In this document: positions 48,201 to 51,200 of the stretch, one piece after another
Numbering within the stretch: the stretch's first letter is position 1
How the letters are laid out: every line of letters begins with the position of its first letter
Assembly: GCA_903813345.2 (NCBI GenBank)
Contig: CAIIXF020000006.1
Span: forward strand, 27,535,936 to 27,599,935
Direction: 5' to 3'
DNA length: 64,000 bases
From: Owenia fusiformis
Lineage: Eukaryota; Annelida; Polychaeta; Sabellida; Oweniidae
Notes under the pieces: model-generated
The model's input: only the letters and a program-made list of their open reading frames with translations
Told to the model about the DNA's origin: nothing
The model's database searches: none
Translations under genes and position numbers: made by a program

Positions 48201-51200
48201 AGTGTCAGTAATTACTAGCAATAGGAGGGCACTGTAGCGAAACAGACATGACCTCATGTGCTTGTTCCCTTCAAGAAAATCTGAAAAAATCCTATTGGTT
48301 TCCACGTTAGTATGACATAAAACACATTAAAGTAATATTGTACAATATCTGGATTTGGCTTCAATTTCAGAAATAATTGAAATATGTGATTGTGAATTTT
48401 TCATTGAAGTAAATAATGCATGATGAATGTCAAAGATGACATCTCTGGGACTCTCTAGGAAGGTTCTATAAAACAGCTTTCTAAATGGTGTATTTTAATT
48501 TGTGTGAAAGTAGATGTGGTATCAATATCATGGCTGAAGTTGAAGCCTGTTTAATTTGATGTCTTGTATATTTTTTCTAGACATATTAATATGCCTCGTT
48601 TCTATCATTTACAATCTCCTTGCATCTGTATCTAGGGTTATTACATCTTCAAGTTCAAAACGCACATTATCAGAAATCCAGGTTCTTGTGATTGAAAAGT
48701 GCATCTATTAATATTATACAAGATCCAGGATTGAATTCCTTAAAAGTACAAGTGCTTTCTCAAGAAAGCAAATGTATCCATGTTCCCTTCAATTAATATT
48801 TTCAGTCTTGCAAAAAGTTCTGGTCACCCTCCTCTCAACCCGGCTTGGCTGTCTACTTCCCCTTAGATGGTCGAGTTATACTGTAGAGGGTCATAAGAGA
48901 TCAAAGGGAGGAATGTGAAATGTTTTTTTTTTACACTTTTCGCATAACACACATACCTGTTAGTCAATGATATGAAACCCATGGAATAACTTTGACTTTT
49001 ATGTGAAGCTTATCAAATTAGAAAGATAAGGATAAGTGTTGATTTTAAAAATATATATTCCCAATATTGACAGAAGTCCTTAATAAGTGTTGGTCATTGG
49101 TTTTGCATGCTTCAGATGTTTATACCTAACTGTTCTTGTGTTTCAGTTCTAAGTATCCGGGGTTCACAAGATGACGAGCCCCCCGACCCGCAACTTATGC
49201 GCTTAGATAACATGTTAATAGCAGAGGGGGTAGCCGGGCCAGAGAAAGATGGCGTCGGATCGGGACCAGGCCAGCCAGAAAATGCCATAGAACACTCAGA
49301 CTACAGATCAAAACTTGCACAGATTAGACAAATATATCACACTGAGTTGGAGAAATATGAACAGGCAAGTAGGATGTTGTTACCATGGTGATTTAATGTT
49401 GTCACATTTGTTGTCATTTCAGTGTTGAGTATACGTGGAGCACAAGATGAGGAACCTCCAGATCCTCAGTTAATGCGATTGGATAATATGTTGATCGCTG
49501 AGGGTGTGGCTGGCCCAGAGAAGGGTGGAGGATCATCGGCAGCCACTGCTGCGACGGCAGCTGCTTCAGGGGGACCTGGGCAACCCGATAATGCCATTGA
49601 GCATTCAGATTACAGAGCCAAACTGGCCCAAATTAGGCAAATCTACCATACAGAGCTGGAAAAATATGAACAGGTCAGATGGTCTGTGCATGGAGTGGAT
49701 TGACAGAGCATGGGACGTTGCTGCTACTACTACTGACCATATAGTTATAATGCCTAGTACTAATACTTTCAATTGTAGGAAAAAAGACCTGTGATTGATT
49801 GCAAGCCCCCCCCCCCCCCTCCCACCCTATATAGCCTGTCTCATTCCTATTTACCTCACCTCCAGTATGTGTATGTAAGATGTAAGCTTGACACAAGACT
49901 AGATTTTGCATGTCTTAGAAAACTAACTTTGGTAAGCCATTTGTGGTTTGTTTGCAAAGAAACTGATGTAACTAATTGACTTTTATAGCTGTTATAGGTT
50001 AGTCCTTTTCTTTAATGGAGACCAGGAGTAATTCCAGTGATCTCCCCAGCATTAAAGCAAGTGGGTGTATGTACCTGAGATCCCATTTGCAACCACTTGA
50101 AAATGAAAAAAAGCATGTAAATGAGCATGTTTTGACCAATTTTGGACAAGAAATCTGCACCTACTTGAGAAAAAATCCTGTCCTGGAATGAGTTTCATTA
50201 AGTTACTATAGTAACTGAGTTTTTATGTCCCCACCACATAGTGTGGGGCCATATTGTCGGCCTAGGCGCGTCCGTCTGTCTGTCCGTCTGTCCGTCTGTC
50301 CGTCTGTCTGTCCGTACGTCCGGCAGTTTTCTCCAAAACCGCTACAGATATCACCTTCAAATTTTCAGGGATAACTTATGAGTGCATACAGATGTGGATG
50401 AAAAAAAATTAACTCGATACCTACTTCCTGTCGGCCATTTTGAAGTCAAATGCTAAAATCCTTGTCTGCAAACTTTAAGAAAAACTGCTTCACAGTTGCT
50501 TTTAAAACTTTAACATCTTGTTCAACTCACTTCATTCTAGATCTGATTAGGTTTTGGACCTGCTAGCTCAGTCATGTCAGCCATTTTGAATGTCTTAAGA
50601 AAAGTTAGCGCGCGATAATACTTTGTATCATATTGAATGGTGTTTTTGAGTTTTCATACTTTAACTATTTAGTAGCTTTATAAATAATTTCAGATGTACT
50701 TTGCTGTAAAAGCCTACTTTATTGTTAACAGTAGTTATATGTGATAATTTTGTAAGAAGAAATCAGCAAAAACTCATAAGGACTTTTTTATTGTCGGCCA
50801 TTTTGGATTTTTCGGTCCTAAAATCTTGTCTGTGAAGTCTTGTCTGCGCGTTTTCAGGTGAACCGTTTGGTGGATCAATTTCAAATTTTCAGGGATGATT
50901 CTTAGTATAAAAATCTAGATCTCATTAGTTTTTTGGCATTCTGGGTAAATGTCAAGGCAGCCATTTTGGATTTTCCGTCCTAAAATCTTGTCTGTAAAGT
51001 CTTGTCTACTCGTTTTCAGGTGAACCGTTTCGTAGATCAATTTCAAATTTTCAGGAATGATTCTTAGTATGAACATCTAGAACTGATTAGTTTTTTTGCA
51101 TTCTGGGTAAATGTCAAGGCAGCCATTTTGGATTTTCCGTCTTAAAATCTTGCCTGTAAAGTCTTGTCTACGCGTTTTTAGGAGAACGGTTTGATAGATC

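Follow-up and report, generated by a model that had tools for sequence, protein, structure and literature searches.

The single PBX gene found in the annelid Owenia fusiformis carries two neighbouring copies of exon 3 (3a and 3b), and the locus raises the question of whether these copies can be spliced into one mRNA or are kept as strict alternatives, and what a switch between them would change in the protein. The window analysed here is a 64,000-nucleotide (nt) stretch of contig CAIIXF020000006.1 (C6; 40,838,847 bases) in a genome of 498 Mb. The gene continues past the end of the window with at least four further exons, and its features are collected in Table 1. An earlier note on this DNA had proposed mutually exclusive splicing of the steric-hindrance type, and its coordinates for 3a, 3b and the gap between them proved exact.

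Table 1. Features of the Owenia PBX gene in window numbering
Feature	Position	Strand	Remarks
PBX exon 1, coding part from ATG	21120..21298	+	Exact match to P0001
PBX exon 2 (PBC-A)	21430..21503	+	Ends one base into a Val codon; fits both 3a and 3b
Alternative exon 2 acceptor, exon start at 21412	21412..21429	+	Used in P0001; adds six residues (SIVSNS)
Acceptor of 3a	49125..49146	+	CTAAC branch-like motif (A at 49129), pyrimidine-rich tract, AG; motif match only
Exon 3a, 218 nt	49147..49364	+	End of PBC-A, short linker, start of PBC-B; within P0001 and P0239
GC donor of 3a, CAG/GCAAGT	49365..49370	+	Computed U1 pairing -9.0 kcal/mol
58-nt gap between 3a and 3b	49365..49422	+	Single YTNAY branch-like motif TTAAT (A at 49396, base 32), terminal AG
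Exon 3b, 251 nt	49423..49673	+	Same protein segment, with the Ala-rich linker usual in other animals; within P0053
GT donor of 3b, CAG/GTCAGA	49674..49679	+	Imperfect consensus; computed U1 pairing -6.9 kcal/mol
PBX exon 4 (PBC-B)	58887..59077	+	Downstream partner common to 3a and 3b
Exon 5a, first half-homeodomain copy	60129..60264	+	Other pair in the same gene
Exon 5b, second half-homeodomain copy	60480..60615	+	Same gene, partner of 5a

The exon 3 pair and its gene

PBX/extradenticle membership was assigned by the combination of a PBC domain and a TALE homeodomain, and both P0001 and P0053 match PF03792, PF05920 and PF00046. A search of the whole 498-Mb genome with the Pfam PBC-family profile returned four places at E <= 0.001, all of them in this gene; the two that fall in exon 3 are 3a and 3b. 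It is therefore the only PBX gene found in the Owenia genome, and a second PBX gene is ruled out as the source of the similarity between the copies. Intron 2 spans 27.6 kb. Tandem repeats occupy the introns on either side of the pair, with a 25-bp unit repeated 32 times upstream (window 46216-47009) and a 162-bp unit repeated 5.1 times downstream (window 50797-51621).

The two copies have lengths that are both 2 modulo 3, share the same phases, and are 78.6% identical over 84 columns. Among 73 aligned codons, 24 are identical, 42 differ synonymously and only 7 change the amino acid, which agrees with the earlier description of nearly the same protein from the same part of PBX with many synonymous differences. 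By the NG86 method pS is 0.938 (saturated) and pN 0.053, and synonymous and nonsynonymous differences are very unevenly distributed (Fisher exact p ~6e-34). With 3a as the query in the window, 3b was recovered at E 9e-40 and the next place at E 0.32, ruling out chance similarity; the saturated silent sites likewise rule out a recent duplication in the assembly. Because synonymous sites are saturated and pN is as low as 0.053, the pair is an old full-length tandem exon duplication with both copies under constraint, as previously claimed. Adjacency and similarity in sequence, length and frame, the properties used to recognise mutually exclusive exons (PMC5740500), are all present in 3a and 3b.

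Relative to 3b, 3a has an 11-codon gap at the Ala-rich linker, so the loss of this linker between PBC-A and PBC-B noted earlier amounts to 11 residues. The 3a linker (GPEK to IEH) is 13 residues long, the shortest in the 201 PBX proteins in which it was measurable, out of 238 among the matches listed. Since 3b has the usual form, 3a is likely to be the derived one. Of the seven residue changes, four fall outside the linker. When 301 proteins among the matches listed were compared, some 3a residues were frequent (S in GxQ, 90/191; S in DYRxK, 35/255) and others scarcer (D, 17/191; E, 17/236). The linker is the main protein difference between 3a and 3b. The other duplicated exons of the gene, 5a and 5b, lie 215 nt apart, and their 46 codons divide into 16 identical, 18 with silent differences and 12 with replacements.

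Spacing, splice signals and frame

To be spliced together, 3a and 3b would need to treat the 58-nt gap as an intron. We bracketed 82 Owenia introns, 30 within myosin-head matches and 52 within dynein matches, counting only neighbouring matches with near-contiguous profile positions. The myosin survey used 80 of 92 rows, leaving out the 12 rows of a one-exon tandem array, with 65 of 210 candidates scored; the dynein survey used all 80 rows. The shortest myosin-head intron is 126 nt and is the one length read exactly, as GT...AG, while lengths otherwise are estimates from profile-position overlap, including the shortest dynein intron at ~117 nt. The raw spacing between neighbouring myosin or dynein matches was never below 94 nt. 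The gap is thus about half the shortest of the 82, in a survey that can overlook very short introns inside one match. Because that shortest intron is ~117 nt, 58 nt is probably below what Owenia splices, and the earlier description of the gap as very short for splicing holds against every sampled intron. Some animals splice introns of ~58 nt. The array left out of the survey (C9:37986009-37994334, minus strand) consists of twelve successive matches to one myosin-head segment (profile ~18-84), and probably marks a myosin gene with a large alternative-exon array.

The geometry inside the gap points the same way. In organisms other than Owenia, a minimum of ~50 nt between the 5' splice site and the branch site is reported as usual, with assembly on E1A abolished at 35 nt (PMC6692369). 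For human exon pairs the steric class is set at under 50 and holds 57 of 629 clusters (PMC5740500). The gap contains only one YTNAY motif, predicting a branch A at base 32, and the distance from the 3a donor to the branch would reach ~50 nt only with a branch point in the last ~8 nt before the AG.

The donor of 3a is of the GC type, a feature absent from the earlier note. It is the sole donor in the gap that keeps the frame to exon 4 without a stop, other donors for 3a being ruled out by frameshift or stop, and both P0001 and P0239 join exactly there. The site is otherwise a perfect donor consensus, as is usual for GC donors, which are also reported to be enriched in alternatively spliced genes (PMC2490688). 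The branch motif ahead of 3a is good. Changing the donor to GT would strengthen computed U1 pairing from -9.0 to -13.7 kcal/mol. By this measure GC lowers the strength of the 3a donor, yet the 3a donor is not weaker than that of 3b (-9.0 vs -6.9).

Should 3a and 3b nonetheless be joined, the reading is ...KYEQ, one Cys and then TGA, the immediate stop that had been deduced from the phase mismatch. Skipping both copies and retaining the gap each end translation early as well. The U2/U12 incompatibility type calls for a U12-flanked exon, but on reading the sequence the acceptors, like the donors of exon 2 and of both exon 3 copies, seem to be of the U2 kind. A local RNA hairpin as selector is unsupported, the fold around the gap being poorer than that of shuffled sequences (z +1.59; 196 of 200 shuffles fold at least as well).

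Use of the two copies

In an effort to determine how the copies are used, annotated Owenia models were compared with the genomic exons. Three protein searches, each giving the best 120 of 1935, 2575 and 2959 matches, listed three Owenia proteins with exon 3: two with 3a (P0001 and P0239), one with 3b (P0053), and none of the three with both. These matches are cluster representatives in which isoforms within 90% identity are hidden, and P0053 represents three sequences, one of them seen. From their first residue on, P0001 and P0239 are identical to the joined exons. P0053 is identical to them after its first residue, an M where the genome reads TTG; this start is the first whole codon of 3b, and P0053 looks like a truncated model. 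The models contain the 2-3a and 3a-4 junctions twice and the 3b-4 junction once, and the exon 2-3b junction is in none of the three annotated Owenia models among the matches listed.

Because the annotation is described as combining RNA-seq (STAR, StringTie, Portcullis, Mikado, Trinity) and ab initio models via PASA, with splice-junction filtering (PMC9977687), these proteins, as models rather than reads, are supportive of the use of both copies. P0001 takes the other acceptor of exon 2 and omits the exon that corresponds to exon 7 of vertebrate PBX1, which suggests that it is a real transcript. That exon lies on C6 past the window (67944-68065 in window numbering), and skipping it shifts the frame to a short C-terminus. 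P0239 may be partly ab initio or a prediction artefact, because it joins 5a and 5b in tandem: 5a is extended by 50 nt to a GT donor after 60314 and runs in frame into 5b, so the two are not exclusive in this model. With 3a joined to exons 2 and 4 in both P0001 and P0239, a lack of 3a expression, which the earlier note had named as a refuting case, is unlikely.

We place the probability at roughly 0.7 that 3a and 3b arose by an old tandem duplication of exon 3 and are used as alternatives through steric exclusion, with the frameshift as a backup. This is our best reading because the spacing in the gap probably falls below the ~50-nt minimum and the shortest bracketed introns are about twice the gap. 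The 3a donor and the 3b branch region would be too close for a spliceosome to form on both, preventing 3a-3b splicing. When the 3a donor is engaged, 3a would be spliced to exon 4; when it is not, exon 2 would be spliced to 3b. The GC donor, as a weak site, may leave this choice adjustable, and double inclusion, double skipping or gap retention would each meet an early stop as read from the sequence. The interpretation in the earlier note is partly supported, by the old constrained duplication, the linker loss in 3a, the frame incompatibility and the short gap; counting against it, none of the annotated Owenia models listed contains the exon 2-3b junction.

That missing junction bears on a promoter-coupled arrangement, in which mRNAs from the exon 1 promoter take 3a and mRNAs starting within intron 2 take 3b, giving a PBX that lacks most of PBC-A. 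Both models that include exons 1-2 do hold 3a, the sole 3b model begins in 3b, and a first exon is joined straight to exon 3 in models from Octopus (P0061), Strigamia (P0002) and Chamberlinius (P0090). However, the phase of exon 2 fits 3b, 3b is similar to the exon next after exon 2 in other animals, and the start of P0053 at the first whole codon of 3b looks like truncation; we regard this arrangement as unlikely.

The early stops can be read in another way, with joint inclusion not blocked but regulated and unproductive, such that 3a-3b mRNAs with an immediate stop are degraded and tune the level of PBX. The 3a-3b join, gap retention and double skipping all stop early, as this requires, and joining reads are reported in 83 of 377 human clusters with frame-shifting lengths (PMC5740500). 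It would nonetheless demand splicing of an intron about half the length of the shortest among the 82 bracketed, and we consider it improbable. Least of all do we expect 3a to be a decaying or noise copy without function. The GC donor and a linker shorter than in any other of the 201 proteins measured among the matches listed would fit decay, but synonymous saturation with pN 0.053, the otherwise perfect donor consensus, the good branch motif and the presence of 3a in two annotated models make it very hard to credit.

Comparison with other systems and implications for PBX

As proposed for Owenia 3a/3b, the alternatives in alpha-tropomyosin and OGDH 4a/4b are kept apart by a branch point too near the 5' splice site; the OGDH branch points are reported at 25-41 nt from it, with tropomyosin cited in the same source (PMC7969005). 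Those branch points lie far from the 3' splice site, whereas in Owenia the whole gap is 58 nt. Compared with these systems on spacing only, the Owenia pair adds a GC donor on the upstream exon and a frame shift on joint inclusion. Exons 9 and 10 of C. elegans let-2 are a mutually exclusive pair. The GC donor of let-2 intron 10 is reported to be needed for regulated splicing, and like that of 3a it is tied to an alternative exon, with developmentally regulated use (PMC2490688). It follows exon 10 of a collagen gene, while the Owenia GC donor follows the upstream copy.

Within the PBX family, vertebrate PBX1b arises from PBX1a by an exon 7 skip that gives a short C-terminus. Owenia P0001 also skips the homologous exon and ends in a short frame-shifted tail. 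The vertebrate switch skips one C-terminal exon, whereas 3a/3b is a choice between two copies in the PBC domain. In bivalve PBX proteins the tail of exon 3 is repeated between exons 3 and 4, so that the same region is copied as in Owenia. The extra in-frame tail was seen in 40 of 164 proteins with both anchors among the matches listed, 38 of them from named bivalves (among P0003-P0050), one from the centipede Strigamia (P0002) and one other. The bivalve copy is partial (19-35 residues), downstream, and included in frame together with exon 3, and hence not exclusive in those proteins. A common origin with the Owenia pair is unlikely, as the tail copy is partial, downstream and less like exon 3; the two are probably independent. 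No 3a-like exon was found in other animals among the matches listed, weak evidence given that these are cluster representatives only.

The homeodomain start occurs at least twice in 8 of 238 proteins among the matches listed: Mya P0050, Pomacea P0122, Biomphalaria P0123 and P0125, Elysia P0124 and P0126, sturgeon P0127, and the spiny lobster Panulirus P0121, whose three successive starts suggest that this decapod has an array of homeodomain exons. Mytilus P0020 and the moth P0128 join them by a second motif. Several of these repeated-homeodomain models may be predictor artefacts. First copies from gastropods (RNFTKNATEIL...GISVSQ) are similar to Owenia 5a ([11 protein letters not shown]...GISVGQ). 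At the position of Owenia SIVSNS, insertions also occur in the nemertean PBX models P0244 and P0258.

Exon 3 covers the linker together with the adjoining end of PBC-A and start of PBC-B. We take PBX1 K153 to be the Lys of RAKL/RSKL, directly after the Ala/Ser that differs between 3b and 3a, by numbering on a PBX1 sequence. K153, in PBC-B, is reported to crosslink to the HR2 domains of both PREP1 and MEIS1, and a mainly helical structure is predicted for PBC-A and PBC-B (PMC7545097). Because the shorter, Ala-free linker of 3a stands beside this MEIS/PREP contact, it suggests altered geometry or partner preference. The switch would alter spacing and composition between the PBC halves near the contact, and would probably tune partner choice or complex geometry rather than fold. 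For none of 44 PDB sequences matched does the best stretch reach exon 3, leaving this region without a solved structure by sequence match. Since 3a/3b alters hardly anything beyond the linker and the flanks of the PBC halves, this natural switch lets the role of the linker be probed in PBX, a Hox cofactor shared by many animals.

Steric, frame-protected mutually exclusive exons are already known, but such a pair in PBX seems undescribed: no title or abstract opening on an exon 3 pair in PBX or extradenticle was found in the literature covered, outside which most subscription papers lie. The GC donor is an unusual added feature of the pair, and a Hox cofactor encoded by a single gene is an interesting home for it. 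3a/3b offers a compact case for steric exclusion outside vertebrates, with the GC donor as an added control. Differential splicing of PBX between the sexes is reported for pbx4 in the Manila clam (PMC9803972).

Vertebrates have four PBX genes. Owenia may obtain PBX variety by splicing instead: 3a/3b would retune the connection between the PBC halves holding MEIS/PREP, 5a/5b would rewrite half of the homeodomain, and the exon 7 skip would shorten the C-terminus. We raise this tentatively, doubtful as it still is. If true, exon duplication would be a general protostome substitute for PBX gene duplication, with these two exons duplicated repeatedly in molluscs, in a centipede and in a lobster.
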